Notes under the pieces: model-generated
The model's input: only the letters and a program-made list of their open reading frames with translations
Told to the model about the DNA's origin: nothing
Databases searched by the model: none
Part shown: one piece after another, positions 3,651 through 35,602 of the stretch
How the letters are laid out: the number at the start of each line of letters is the position of its first letter
How positions within the stretch are numbered: position 1 is the stretch's first letter
Source: Rhodothermia bacterium
GTDB taxonomy: Bacteria; Bacteroidota; Rhodothermia; Rhodothermales; UBA2364
Direction of reading: 5' to 3'
DNA length: 36,374 nt
Assembly: GCA_017303715.1 (NCBI GenBank)
Contig: JAFLBZ010000011.1
Coordinates: 1-36,374, forward strand
Program-made: the position numbers and the translations under genes

Positions 3651-4778
3651 TTAAACCTGACGTACCGCCTTGCAACGATCCAGCCAACGCTGAACGGTTT
3701 GTGACAACAAATTTGGATTAAACTCTAATTCTGTACATTTTTTTGCTTGTTCAATATAATCCGGCAAATGCTTAAGATTGTGTTGCAAGCAAACGGCTGC
3801 TCGGTTATGTATTTTCCAATTCGCCCCGAGATGCTCTTGTTCAGTTTGGCCCGGCGTTGGGACCAAAACCAAGCCAGAGATACCCAAAACCACATAGTCC
3901 ATCAAACTCGAATATCCTGAACGAGAAATAACCACCTTAGCGGTTCTAAGTAGGTGCTGAAGATCTACCCCATCTAAGAACGGAATGGTACGCACATTTT
4001 GGTTATGTCCAAATCCTTGTTTATCGGGCCTTCCCTCCACAATCCACAACGGAAGCGGGAGTTGAGGGGCCACCTTAATGAGTGCATCTTGGAACATGGT
4101 GCGCTGCGGCTCAGGCCCGGAAAGTACTGCAGCCACGAAAGGTTCATTAATTTCGAGCCGTTTGTCTATAAACCCCAAAGGTTTAGGCTCGCCAGCAAAT
4201 CGCGAAAGGACTCCTATCCAATCTACATGTGGAGCATGTTTGGAAGTCTGTTTTGGTAAAGGGAATCGGTGAAGCAGGTCTCCAGCAAGCCGGAGGTTAG
4301 GATCATCCGGCAACCACCAGTCGGAAAAAGGGCGGATAATTTGTTTATGAACACGATATGCGGTTAGGTGAAACGCTTCGAAGGGCTTAGGTGGCAGAAC
4401 AGCTATTTGGTGGCCAATAAATGCGGACGGAATACCCGACAGCCACATCCCGAATCGGCTATCCGAGACCACACCATCAAATGGGGCATTATGATGCCAT
4501 TCTCGAAGGATTCGGTGTTCTTGGGCAACGGTTCGGATCACATGGGGGACTTGTGAATAAATGGCGACCAAGCTATTTTTACGTCCATAGCGGATGTTAT
4601 AGCCGGGCAATTCTCGTACCTCTAATGTGGGAAAGGTGCGTTTCAGCACTTGTAAGGCGTCGCCGTCTGATGCCAAAACGACCTCAGCACCCTCATTATG
4701 CAATGCTCGAATAACCGGAATGCTCCGAGTAGCATGACCCAGACCCCAATTTAGGACGGCAAAGAGGATGCGTGGCAT
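3651..4778 (-). CDS. Glycosyltransferase of the MurG-like / GT28 C-domain type (Glyco_trans_1_3-like)
   Basis: Likely a GT-B fold glycosyltransferase that uses a nucleotide-sugar donor; acceptor and product are unknown. The N-terminus MPRILFAVLNWGLGHATRSI carries the GxGHxxR motif found at the start of MurG-like and related transferases. The C-terminal half has VVISRSGYSSLMDYVVLGISGL and PTPGQTEQEHLGANW, which match the donor-binding region of GT28-type enzymes (the S/G-rich loop, then PxxxQxEQ). At 375 residues it is of normal length and has no signal peptide or membrane span, so it is probably cytoplasmic or peripheral. It is a single gene, divergent from the outer-membrane protein gene at 4880 across about 100 bp. 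It is not true MurG, because the neighbouring mur/fts cluster is missing and the sequence is divergent. Confidence 0.8.
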   Translation of the reverse strand: MPRILFAVLNWGLGHATRSIPVIRALHNEGAEVVLASDGDALQVLKRTFPTLEVRELPGYNIRYGRKNSLVAIYSQVPHVIRTVAQEHRILREWHHNAPFDGVVSDSRFGMWLSGIPSAFIGHQIAVLPPKPFEAFHLTAYRVHKQIIRPFSDWWLPDDPNLRLAGDLLHRFPLPKQTSKHAPHVDWIGVLSRFAGEPKPLGFIDKRLEINEPFVAAVLSGPEPQRTMFQDALIKVAPQLPLPLWIVEGRPDKQGFGHNQNVRTIPFLDGVDLQHLLRTAKVVISRSGYSSLMDYVVLGISGLVLVPTPGQTEQEHLGANWKIHNRAAVCLQHNLKHLPDYIEQAKKCTELEFNPNLLSQTVQRWLDRCKAVRQV

Positions 4779-7054: not shown

Positions 7055-7891
7055 ATGAGCAATATCCAATGGGTAGAAGCCGGTACGTTTACCGACATCA
7101 AATACCACAAAGCCGAAGGGCTGGCCAAAATCACCATAAACCGTCCTGAAGTCCGCAATGCGTTCCGGCCCGAAACCGTGAAAGAACTGCGTTTGGCGCT
7201 CCATGACGCCCGCGAAGACCACGAGATTGGCGTTGTAATCCTTACGGGGGAAGGACGAGAAGCTTTTTGCTCTGGCGGCGACCAACGCATTCGTGGGGAT
7301 GCCGGATACAAAGAAGCCGGAAACGAAAAGGTGATGCGGCTTAATGTCTTAGACTTTCAGCGGGAAATTCGGACGTGTCCGAAGCCTGTCATCGCAATGG
7401 TGGCGGGCTGGGCTGTGGGTGGCGGGCACGTTCTACACGTCCTTTGCGACCTGACCATCGCCGCCGATAATGCCAAGTTTATGCAAACAGGCCCCAAAGT
7501 AGGTTCTTTTGATGGCGGCTACGGCTCCAGTTATTTGGCACGAATTGTTGGGCAAAAAAAGGCACGTGAAATCTGGTATCTCTGCCGTCCGTACAATGCC
7601 ACTGAAGCCTTGCAAATGGGCTTGGTTAACAAGGTGGTTCCATACGAAGAATTAGAAGCCACAACCGTAGAATGGGGGCGCGAAATTATGCAAAAATCGC
7701 CTTTAGCCATTCGCTTGCTCAAATCTGCCTTGAATGCCGACTGCGACGGGCAAGCCGGTTTGCAGGAATTGGCGGGAAATGCAACGTTGTTGTTTTATAT
7801 GACGGAAGAAGGCCAAGAAGGCCGGAATGCCTATAACGAGAAGCGGAAACCAGAATTTGACAACCCAGATCGCTTCCCACGCCGCCCTTAG
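7055..7891 (+). CDS. menB: 1,4-dihydroxy-2-naphthoyl-CoA synthase
   Basis: MenB catalyses the intramolecular Claisen (Dieckmann-type) ring closure of o-succinylbenzoyl-CoA to 1,4-dihydroxy-2-naphthoyl-CoA in menaquinone biosynthesis. The 278-residue protein is a crotonase-fold enzyme of normal MenB length. Diagnostic motifs are [13 protein letters not shown], the oxyanion-hole region [40 protein letters not shown], and the C-terminal [18 protein letters not shown] tail seen in MenB. It is monocistronic here: no other men gene is in the window, the preceding gene is the Omp85 protein 132 bp upstream, and a strong hairpin follows. It implies a menaquinone-based respiratory chain. Confidence 0.96.
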
Positions 7892-32873: not shown

Positions 32874-33492
32874 ATGAGTCTCGTTGATCGTGCAAAAAAA
32901 CATCTTGCTTAGCCCCAAAGCCGAATGGGAAGTTATTGATGGCGAATCTTCCAACATGTCGTCTTTGATCGTCAGTTATGCGCTACCTTTCATGGTACTG
33001 GGAGCCATTGCTGGTGCTATTGGTAGCTCGGTTTTTGGTGTTACCGTACCCTTTTTAGGAACAATTAAAACACCTTGGTTACAATCCATGATTACCGCTG
33101 CGGCCACTATCGTAGTTGCTGTGGTGATGCTATACATTTTGGCCTTTATCGTAAACTTTTTTGCGCCCAATTTTGGGGGCGAAAAGAACGACAACCAAGC
33201 GGCCAAATTGGTGGTATATGCCTCTACGGCGGGCTGGGTTGCCCAGATTTTTGGCATTATCCCTGCGGTTGGTGGTATTATGTCATTCGTAGGTGCAATC
33301 TATGGCATTTATTTGTACTATTTGGGCCTGCCCACCCTGATGAAAAACCCGCAGGATAAAACCATTATTTACATGATTGTGGTAGCTATTGCAGCCATTG
33401 TCGTGAACATGGTTCTCGGCGGGGTTATTGTTGGCGCCATTGTAAGCGCCTTTGGATTTGGCGCGGCGGCTGCCGGAGGTTTGGGCATGTAA
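32874..33492 (+). CDS. Yip1-family membrane protein, start out of frame with body at an A7 tract
   Basis: A multi-span protein of the Yip1/YIPF-type fold in the inner membrane; function unknown. The clear start is the ATG at 32874, with GGAGG at 32862-32866, 7 bp upstream. That frame reads MSLVDRAKKHLA and stops at 32912. The body, in the next frame, runs to 33492 and continues as NILLSPKAEWEVIDGE, which reads smoothly from MSLVDRAK if one A is removed from the seven A's at 32894-32900. The body has five hydrophobic segments, such as MVLGAIAGAIGSSVFGV and FGIIPAVGGIMSFVGAIYG, and about 200 residues. A TTG at 32884 is the only in-frame start in the body's frame, but it is 17 bp from the ribosome site. 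Either a sequencing or assembly error or a real slippage signal is possible. Confidence 0.8.
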
Positions 33493-33514
33493 TTCCCCCA
33501 AACCGATCAAAAAG

Positions 33515-33542
33515 AAAAAGGCTCCGTTTGGGGCCTTTTTTT
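33515..33542 (+). terminator. Intrinsic terminator of the Yip1-like gene
   Basis: An 11-bp stem AAAAAGGCTCC (33515-33525) with GGGGCCTTTTT (33530-33540), including one T-G pair, around the loop GTTT, with two further T's. It lies 23 bp after the stop codon. Confidence 0.9.
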
Positions 33543-33660
33543 ATGAGGCACTGAATGCAAAGAGGTGAATGCCGCTGGCGCTCAGAAAGACCTTCCTTTG
33601 GACAATGGTGACGAGTTCTTGGAGGCCCACTTGCAAGGGATTGGGATGCATCCTTCAGGA

Positions 33661-33775
33661 ATAGGTTTTTAAATAAGATGGGTATGTTTTTAAATTGTCC
33701 GCCGCTTAGTTCTTAGGGTATGGAAAGGAAGGCCAATAGCCCTTCTTCGGGGGAGGAAGGGCTATTAAAGCTATA
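33661..33775 (-). repeat. 115-bp hairpin-bearing repeat, copy 1 (downstream of the 92-residue gene)
   Basis: This segment aligns end to end with 34446-34562 at very roughly 75-80% identity, counted by eye. Shared blocks include AATAAGATG, CTTA-GGTATG, AAGGAAGGCCAA and GCCCTTCTTCG. Copy 1 holds a perfect 11-bp stem AATAGCCCTTC (33735-33745) and GAAGGGCTATT (33756-33766). It lies about 75 bp beyond the stop of the minus-strand gene at 33850, so it is in that gene's 3' region and may act as a terminator or RNA structure. Confidence 0.75.
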
Positions 33776-33849
33776 TAAACAAATTATTGTACCATGATGC
33801 AGAAGCCTTGTACGATGTCTTGCACACTAAGGCTGTGGCTGAAGGCTCC

Positions 33850-34128
33850 TTAAATCAAGGAGGCCAGCTTTAGGTTAACAACCATTAAAATGATAAATAA
33901 AAGAATATAAATCATTAAATCATACTTGTAATTACCAGTCATTGATCCTTTCCAAGCGTCTGGGATTTCTTTGGAAAGCAGCATGGAAAGGGGAATAAGC
34001 ACAATCCATGGAAATTGGGCAACATCCATCCCCGTTTTATGGCCGGCAATCATTGGCCAAATCATTGGCCAAACAAAGGTTAATAGCACTAACAGAAGGT
34101 GGAAGTAGGTTATTTTGAACTTTATCAT
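33850..34128 (-). CDS. Small integral membrane protein of unknown function
   Basis: A 92-residue protein with three hydrophobic segments, at about 8-28 (FHLLLVLLTFVWPMIWPMIA), 38-52 (QFPWIVLIPLSMLL) and 70-92 (YDLMIYILLFIILMVVNLKLA). I do not recognise a family. The gene is AT-rich relative to the rest of the window and is preceded by a 19-bp tandem duplication that ends 11 bp before its start codon. It is followed by the 115-bp repeat element. The second membrane-protein gene at 34646 has the same downstream element, which suggests a common origin of the two units even though the proteins are not obviously homologous. Confidence 0.65.
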   Translation of the reverse strand: MIKFKITYFHLLLVLLTFVWPMIWPMIAGHKTGMDVAQFPWIVLIPLSMLLSKEIPDAWKGSMTGNYKYDLMIYILLFIILMVVNLKLASLI

Positions 34129-34138
34129 GGTTTTTAAT

Positions 34139-34176
34139 TGTTTAAATTCATGTTATGTGTTTAAATTCATGTTATG
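34139..34176. repeat. Perfect 19-bp tandem duplication upstream of the 92-residue membrane protein gene
   Basis: The unit TGTTTAAATTCATGTTATG occurs twice back to back with no mismatch. It ends 11 bp upstream of the start codon at 34128 (minus strand), so it may duplicate part of a promoter or 5' untranslated region. It is AT-rich and contains an AAATTCATG motif. Confidence 0.9.
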
Positions 34177-34445
34177 ATAAACTATTTAGGTAATGATTGC
34201 TTGCAAACTGCACGAGATGCGTCACATAGCCTAAGTGATTCGATATAATGATATTCAGCTGCTGCCAAGCAAATTGGTGTTCCAATTACAGTTTCTATCG
34301 GTCCAAAACAAGCATTGTATTATTATCATATTTTTTATTGAATTGAATTTACAACTTTTTCAAAACCATGCCAATATCCTTGTACTTATTTTTTATCAAA
34401 ACGGTGTTTTTTAGCAGATTGATTTCAATGTTTTTTGGATTAAGG

Positions 34446-34562
34446 TTGGGTTTTTCAATAAGATGAGCGTGTTTTCAAGTTGTTTGCCACCTTTTTCTTA
34501 AGGTATGCCAAGGAAGGCCAAAAGCCCTTCTTCGTTGGTAAGGAAGGCTCTTCAAGCTTTGT
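34446..34562 (-). repeat. 115-bp hairpin-bearing repeat, copy 2 (downstream of the 138-residue gene)
   Basis: Colinear with 33661-33775. The conserved stem is less perfect here: AGCCCTTC (34523-34530) pairs with GAAGGCT (34543-34549) with one bulged C. It lies about 85-200 bp beyond the stop at 34646, so the two minus-strand genes each carry this element behind them, at similar distances. Confidence 0.7.
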
Positions 34563-34645
34563 GAATATCCCTAAATCATCCTTCTGTTTAGATGCTTACA
34601 GCGCCTGAACAGGGCAAATGGGGGCATTTGCCATAGCACTTCGCA

Positions 34646-35062
34646 TTAATTTACCGCTGCGTTGTGTTGCTTGTATGCGTAATAGAAAATTGCACAGATC
34701 GCAAGCGCAAGTGCCCATGCAAGTAAGGGGCGGGTCATATAGCCAATTTTCATATCCAATATAATAGAGCCACTCCATAAGAGTAACAAAGACAATAATG
34801 TTGTAATAATAGTACCAACAAGCAAGTAGTAGTCTTTTGCTTTAAGATATGGGATTGCGGATATGAAGGCCACCGAAGCAATCCAAGAAGCCCATACATA
34901 CGAAGCATGAAAAACATCTAATGGTTCAAAACTCCATCCGAGATCGGCCCATTTGGCAAAAAAACTCCAACCGGCAAATAGTCCTGCTATTCCTAAGCCA
35001 ACCATCGTTATTCGCCTAAATATGATTTCTAGCCCCTGACCTTTTATTAAGTTGTTAGACAT
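34646..35062 (-). CDS. Small four-span membrane protein of unknown function
   Basis: A 138-residue protein with hydrophobic segments at about 18-36 (ITMVGLGIAGLFAGWSFFA), 52-70 (SYVWASWIASVAFISAIPYL), 77-97 (YYLLVGTIITTLLSLLLLWS) and 108-128 (MTRPLLAWALALAICAIFYY). The start is the ATG at 35062 (MSNNLIKGQGLEIIFRR). I do not recognise a family. It is followed by a perfect 8-bp hairpin at 34613-34632 and then by copy 2 of the 115-bp repeat. Confidence 0.65.
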   Translation of the reverse strand: MSNNLIKGQGLEIIFRRITMVGLGIAGLFAGWSFFAKWADLGWSFEPLDVFHASYVWASWIASVAFISAIPYLKAKDYYLLVGTIITTLLSLLLLWSGSIILDMKIGYMTRPLLAWALALAICAIFYYAYKQHNAAVN

Positions 35063-35602
35063 GGTTGTTTTGGTTTTATTTATTCTGGATTGGTCTTAAT
35101 GTACAACCATTATAAAATTTTTTCAACACTTTTATACTGAATATTTGAGCAACATGTGTTTTTTGCAACCCTTTTTTGTCAAGAATAGTTCTTTCAATAG
35201 GTTAGAGAATTTTGGGCTTGTTATAAAAACTGCACGAAACGGCGCTTTAGTGGCCACACATCCAGAGCAGGCATTGGGCCAGCCATTAACTTAAAAGGAT
35301 TTTGCTTTAACGTGCGTGATGGGTTAATCAAGTGGAAGCCTGCAAAAGCCCGTCATGGCCTGAAGAAAAATCTTCTCGCCTATGCTGCGGATGTCCGATG
35401 GGACGAATCATAAAGACACACAATCGTGCGTCCCATACATCCAGCACTTCAAGGCAATTCGCCCTCATTCATCGAAGACCAGTGGCTGAGCCAAGTCGAA
35501 ATTTATCCTTGCTCCGGCGGATTTTCCTAAGGATCGCCCTGCCAACACATCATACCAATAAGATAGAGGCGATCTCAACGTCACAAACGTCATAAGATAA
35601 TT
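35063..35602. other. Gene-free region with the second 25-bp dispersed repeat
   Basis: About 540 bp between the 138-residue membrane gene and the partial gene at the right end. It is AT-rich at 35063-35220. It contains the 11-mer AAACTGCACGA (35227-35237) shared with the upstream region of the other small membrane gene, and copy 2 of the 25-bp repeat. An 87-codon plus-strand frame at 35332-35595 lacks any protein character and I do not call it. Confidence 0.5.
35309..35333. repeat. Dispersed 25-bp repeat, copy 2
   Basis: Starts AACGTGCGTGATGGGTTAAT and differs from copy 1 at 26599-26623 by one base. Same orientation, about 8.7 kb apart, both intergenic. Confidence 0.75.

Follow-up and report, generated by a model that had tools for sequence, protein, structure and literature searches.

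The repeated element described here is best read as part of a terminator/promoter module that a single bacterial genus recycles between operons, with an AATTC microsatellite as its seam; we put the probability of this reading at about 0.6. The repeat family and its anatomy are well supported. The two copies that lie in the window, i.e., the whole 36,374-nt stretch of DNA analysed, are a half view of a longer unit, and the window version of that unit is decayed. In the following, coordinates refer to the window and the minus strand is the gene direction; W1 denotes copy 1 and W2 denotes copy 2. G000 is the window's own genome (62 contigs, 4.35 Mb), a relative of UBA2364 within Bacteroidota Order II, while G001 and G002 are two congeners.

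W1 and W2 share an ungapped 86-nt repeat (33664-33749 and 34449-34534) with 81% identity, and a gapped match over 111 columns with 79% identity (33664-33772 and 34449-34558; E = 1.6e-19 in a whole-genome search). Their local score of 100 compares with a maximum of 33 in 5000 shuffles and of 24 in 2932 random window segments. The colinear homology proposed in the first-pass annotation is therefore real. The perfect 11-bp stem that it described in copy 1 is present within 14-nt arms, and the two small proteins, which it held not to be clearly homologous, indeed give no alignment (92-aa and 138-aa ORFs). Its view of the segments as 3' elements of small membrane genes does not hold: minus-strand ORFs of 92 and 138 aa do lie in front of them, but most of the conserved part is the upstream and promoter region of the next gene. 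The copies have the same orientation and are 785 bp apart. W2, about twice as long as W1, extends to ~34337; the following unit on the minus strand has its upstream region and putative promoter in the left part of W2 (Table 1).

Table 1. Features of the extra segment and its two module copies
Feature	Position	Strand	Remark
Extra segment, lacking in both congeners at the site with the same flanking genes	33543..35600		GC 0.399 vs 0.473 for the window
Copy 1, half of the upstream region, without promoter part	33664..33734	-	
Copy 1 hairpin, terminator-like	33735..33766	-	perfect 11-bp stem, without U-tract; downstream of the 92-aa gene
92-aa hydrophobic protein	33850..34128	-	orphan
Gene remnant	34182..34310	-	open frame of 42 residues with 4 Cys, ending in a stop but lacking a start codon; 5' part lost beside the promoter
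Two AATTC units	34340..34349	-	short counterpart of the (AATTC)4-21 arrays
W2 promoter-like motif, TTGGCA-N17-TAAATT (TTG-N20-TAnnTT)	34346..34374	-	spacing matches the genus's 7 array loci
Copy 2, conserved upstream region	34375..34519	-	34337-34468 is 78% identical to C3b
Copy 2 hairpin	34520..34553	-	imperfect; downstream of the 138-aa gene
138-aa hydrophobic protein	34646..35062	-	no relative found other than a disrupted C8 paralogue (40%)
Promoter-like motif, TTGAAA-N17-TACATT	35098..35126	-	ahead of the 138-aa gene
Separate interspersed repeat of ~430 bp, degenerate copy	35272..35578		near the right end of the extra segment

Neither of the two small proteins, whose membrane-spanning character is a by-eye judgement, has a Pfam or NCBIfam match above cut-off. 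Among the other 243 genomes of the class, the 92-aa protein has one weak match (30%, E = 3.7e-4) and the 138-aa protein has none; no relative of the latter was found on a plasmid or viral contig either. Behind its disrupted paralogue in G000 (C8, 32644-33042) stands a separate, strong AGCCCTTTC hairpin (z = -4.87), and no promoter module was seen within the stretch read there. The ~430-bp interspersed repeat has ends like TATTGAG...CTCAATA and ten further aligned copies in G000; with the window's degenerate copy as query, no match was listed in G001 or G002.

Within G000, a search with copy 1 finds the window pair, two stem-sized matches on contig C3 and weaker, chance-level matches, while copy 2 yields partial matches to three more copies, all on C3. 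A C3 copy used as query recovers the three C3 copies, W2, the W1 hairpin and a promoter-side copy on C40. Thus, the outcome that the first-pass annotation would have taken for a simple duplication, i.e., these two copies only, is not what the genome holds: the hairpin side occurs in three more copies, of which one has half a hairpin, and the promoter side in one more. When 60 relatives were searched with copy 1, all matches outside G000 were weak and partial. Read in the gene direction, the full unit of the C3 copies consists of a gene end, the hairpin, the upstream region (~110 bp between hairpin and promoter), the motif TTGACA-N17-TAAATT, (AATTC)13-14, a leader with GGAG, and ATG. In W2, the promoter motif and two AATTC units remain ahead of a truncated gene, and W1 retains the hairpin with half of the upstream region. 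The promoter is also lacking in C3a, which terminates the C3 array.

Arrays of (AATTC)4 or longer occur at seven loci in 3 of the 60 genomes searched, all three belonging to one genus; the other 57 genomes, of the same order, have none. At 7 of 7 array loci, the array starts inside the TAnnTT (-7) box of a TTG-N20-TAnnTT motif, and W2 carries the same promoter motif, likewise fused to its AATTC units. The arrays comprise 14, 13 and 10 units in G000, 21, 11 and at least 8 (contig end) in G002, and 4 in G001. W2 and C84 of G001 have two units each, and the -7 box of C84 is TGAATT, not TAnnTT. At all six loci with visible downstream DNA, the array is placed between the putative promoter and the predicted start codon. 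Its length differs between 97%-identical C3 copies (14 vs 13 units) and between the G002 and G001 versions of one operon (21 vs 4), a variation between paralogues or species and not within a strain. Promoters are motif matches throughout, and a sigma-70 scan stayed near the shuffle level (C3, 11 vs 13.4; window, 9 vs 6.4, s.d. 2.6). A search for array plus promoter in named genomes returned four stretches, of which one is the G001 contig and three, in Ignavibacteriae, Sulfurovum and Flavobacterium, have only 3 units and are presumably chance matches. Among open-licence papers, judged from titles and the starts of abstracts, we found none on this array or genus.

At the only two clear chimeras, homology switches between upstream module and leader at the AATTC array, within 5 bp. 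This comparison comprised 10 units from the three genomes, with 110 bp plus promoter as the upstream block and the 110 nt after the array as the leader block; seven units entered the leader matrix, which omits W2 (truncated gene), C24 (contig end) and C54 (no array). Local scores were employed in place of a percent-identity matrix with free end gaps, because shuffles reached ~74% in the latter. Shuffled local scores had a mean of 17.5 and a maximum of 34 for upstream blocks, and a mean of 15 and a maximum of 31 for leaders. C56 and C59, both from G002, score 212 upstream and 20 in the leader, and C104 and C84, both from G001, score 166 and 16. Across genomes, C59 and C3c score 18 upstream and 72 in the leader, and C84 and C3c score 17 and 66. 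C56 and C104, which carry the same operon in the sister species, reach 98 and 187. At C59, the upstream homology stops 4 nt past the array and the leader homology begins 3 nt before it; at C84, the leader homology begins with the first base of the array, and that of the upstream block stops 5 nt past it. A short-read misjoin is unlikely at C84, because its array measures only 10 bp. Some doubt as to misassembly remains for G002, where the arrays are longer and contig C24 ends inside one. Two units fit the clustering by genome less well. The C24 upstream block, from G002, is nearer to the G001 loci (57, 52, 46) than to C56 and C59 (37, 39), and that of C40 is weakly like the other G000 upstream blocks (39, 39 and 52, with the C3 copies and W2). 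Together with the narrower leader claim, these exceptions slightly lower our confidence in the module reading.

The proteins encoded behind C56 and C59 are unrelated, and so are those behind C3b and C3c, although the upstream modules of the latter pair are identical. The C59/C3c match covers the leader and the start of the signal sequence, while the mature proteins are unrelated. The idea that the leader travels with its cargo was rejected, since different mature proteins share leader and signal-sequence start. It follows that promoter module, leader/signal module and mature protein each appear to be exchanged to some extent, the array being the joint between the first two. That C84 has the same operon type as C3c is supported further downstream, where the 181-aa gene is matched at 70% over 535 bp.

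Signal peptides, lipoboxes and protein types were assigned by eye, apart from a few Pfam matches. On C3, one unit precedes genes for a 428-aa lipoprotein-like and two outer-membrane-like proteins (one sub-threshold OMP_b-brl match), the other for a 90-aa exported and a 208-aa lipoprotein-like protein. The C40 unit precedes genes for a small exported Cys-containing protein and a 218-aa lipoprotein-like protein, which matches the 208-aa protein weakly (39% over 41 residues). The operon of G001 C104 and G002 C56 encodes a 155-aa exported protein, a 6-bladed beta-propeller protein (DUF5128) and a 204-aa protein, and G002 C59 a 282-aa Cys-rich lipoprotein-like protein. The neighbours found elsewhere, which are genes for lipoprotein-like, outer-membrane-like and small exported Cys-containing proteins, thus contradict a family of structured RNA 3' ends behind small membrane genes, one of the possibilities first raised. 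In the cargo scanned with Pfam and NCBIfam, the sole match above the cut-off was the 6-bladed beta-propeller of the G002 operon (DUF5128, DUF4934), and the 155-aa protein had no plasmid match. The small cargo peptides, which we take to resemble NVEALA-type peptides, have no Pfam match. On the 3059-bp contig C92 of G001, two transposase-type ORFs (DDE_Tnp_1 and DDE_3) flank a cargo relative.

The three-gene operon sits at different genomic sites in the sister species, a single event. Between G001 and G002, it is 90% identical over 2519 bp, and its surroundings differ. The hairpin half of the module abuts, in G002, a cNMP-binding (PF00027, CRP-like) gene that is cut after 42-47 codons, its remainder having been sought within a 9.5-kb stretch; on G001 C19, where the stretch concerned lacks the operon, the same gene is intact. 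Two identical 118-bp direct repeats border the operon in G001 (4456-4573 and 7386-7503 in the numbering of the operon's own stretch), and a 75% relative of this repeat lies downstream of the C84 unit. Cassettes may have been moved by such neighbouring repeats, which measure 118 bp in G001 and ~430 bp in G000. At the sites of the extra segment of the window and of the C3 array, both congeners instead have 34-35 bp and about 256 bp, respectively, between the corresponding neighbours. G001 and G002 are 85% identical in one 2.1-kb stretch, compared with 75-76% to G000; because they are nearer to each other than to G000, a gain in G000 and one loss in the ancestor of G001 and G002 are equally likely. 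Of the earlier suggestion of a duplicated cassette or a mobile or recombination-associated element, the duplicated and cassette-like nature holds, and an association with recombination is probable.

The same upstream module before unrelated genes within a genome would also be expected of a self-moving, MITE-like mobile promoter, with the hairpin as one end, the AATTC array as the other and a transposase acting in trans. This would fit the half-hairpins at two left borders (C3c and C56), and likewise the relatives of the 208-aa lipoprotein gene, which are found both with a module nearby (C3, C54 and, weakly, C40) and without one in the visible stretch (C11 at 53 kb and G002 C36). However, we noticed no terminal inverted repeats or target duplications when inspecting the copies by eye, and the end copies W1 and C3a break off at different points inside the module. 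We consider a self-moving element unlikely.

That the window holds nothing more than a local tandem duplication is suggested by the common orientation and the 785-bp spacing of W1 and W2, and by their mutual identity of 77%, compared with 63-67% to the C3 copies. The C3 copies are 96-99% alike, and since identity within both groups exceeds that between them, we infer that each array was amplified in place. Yet further copies exist on C3 (three) and C40 with different genes, and the array switch is present in two other genomes. Local duplication therefore accounts for the pair but not for the family, and as a full explanation it is distinctly unlikely.

The hairpin is a characteristic of the repeat family. 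In W1, its 14-nt arms are 93% complementary with 4 nt between them and fold with -20.2 kcal/mol (z = -4.17), whereas the W2 hairpin is weak and imperfect (z = -0.98). The exact stem GCCCTTC-N3-12-GAAGGGC occurs at three sites in the 4.35-Mb genome, each of them a family copy, and a generic genome-wide terminator stem was rejected on these grounds. Looser relatives of the hairpin were noticed by reading on C8, C11 (at 53 kb) and C40. Over six hairpins, 88.7% of cells are paired as opposed to 45-61% when the pairing is slid. The covariation looked for in the first-pass annotation is there in that 3 of 11 stem pairs changed on both sides, but it is weak, as a slide of -3 yields the same number of such pairs and 43 of 500 shuffles have at least as many. 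These values lend weak support to a maintained stem. TTTTTC follows the stem in C3a and C3b, while W1 and W2 have no U-tract, and a terminator pattern scan restricted to loops of 3-8 flagged none of these hairpins. Most likely, the hairpin is predicted to end transcription of the upstream operon. A stem specific to the family, some covariation in it, and the better folding of W1 and C3 than of shuffles would also suit a structured 3'-end RNA family, i.e., a regulatory 3'UTR or sRNA defined by the hairpin. We consider this very unlikely, as the homology runs on through the promoter, C3c and C56 retain just half the hairpin, the W2 hairpin is weak and the element has no Rfam match: window positions 33400-35300 gave one sub-threshold match, outside the element, and the seven loci gave none up to an E-value of 0.1.

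A chromosomal integron array, in which cassettes carry attC sites, would resemble the same-strand small ORFs that are each followed by an imperfect inverted repeat, but was rejected as hardly credible, since 0 of 3 genomes has an integron integrase over the TIGR02249 cut-off and the repeat carries the promoter-like region of the next gene. Weaker tyrosine-recombinase matches occur in 3 of 3 genus genomes and in 14 of 14 control genomes. Five G000 contigs (C2, C6, C19, C32 and C55) each have an ORF of 115-143 aa within about 7 kb of the contig's low end that matches just the C-terminal part of tyrosine recombinases.

Mobile promoters are reportedly homologous promoter regions that stand before genes lacking mutual homology within a single genome. 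The present loci are alike in that closely similar promoter regions precede unrelated genes within a genome; by this definition, such pairs are C56/C59 (212 upstream, 20 leader), C104/C84 (166, 16) and C3b/C3c (identical upstream). Unlike mobile promoters, the module includes the terminator-like hairpin of the previous operon and ends in a pentanucleotide array, where module and leader switch. An excerpt of PMC8049555 cites Matus-Garcia et al. 2012 and van Passel et al. 2014 for mobile promoters. For Moraxella catarrhalis uspA2, excerpts of PMC4679880 and PMC7302503 describe (AGAT)n repeats of variable number in the 5'UTR, between the promoter and the start codon of a surface protein. The AATTC array likewise appears to lie between promoter motif and start codon and to vary in copy number. 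In contrast, these excerpts concern a single locus with a measured mRNA effect, whereas our seven loci are known from sequence alone, and here the array coincides with a module junction. The vlhA lipoprotein gene family of Mycoplasma gallisepticum also has variable repeats at the promoters of lipoprotein genes, as the lipoprotein-like genes do here. There, according to an excerpt of PMC6258824, (GAA)n lies ~40 nt upstream of the transcription start within one gene family, and that excerpt describes no shuffling at the repeat. TAACTGA heptamer arrays (MacGregor 2015, PMC4679880, excerpt) are short direct repeats upstream of start codons, as are ours, and are also found in five Bacteroidetes; they have another unit and precede many unrelated genes, and no shared promoter module is described in the excerpt. 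Taken together, the module resembles mobile promoters and uspA2-type repeats, and differs from these in its inclusion of the hairpin and in its seam array.

We infer promoter activity, terminator activity, recombination as the cause and the spread of the module from the DNA sequence, and propose the following mechanism for the recycled terminator/promoter module. The genus would reuse the module as an intergenic unit ahead of exported-protein operons. The hairpin would end the upstream operon and be followed by the ~110-bp upstream region and the TTG-N20-TAnnTT promoter; the array, beginning in the -7 box, would form the start of the 5'UTR. Copies would have been amplified locally, as in the C3 array and the window pair. 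Homologous recombination at a common AATTC tract, or gene conversion stopping there, could then join the genome's own promoter module to different leader/signal-sequence modules. The length of the tract may also tune expression. In the window, the unit would have decayed, with W2 reading into the truncated gene and then the 92-aa gene, and with W1 as a leftover terminator plus half an upstream region. That the microsatellite is a working seam, at which repeats let resident promoters capture new leader/signal modules and exported proteins while their length tunes the captured gene, is a tentative proposal that we consider possible rather than probable. Bacterial microsatellites are known mainly as length switches. 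If the proposal is true, a repeat that also acts as a promoter/leader exchange boundary would link phase-variation repeats to gene capture.
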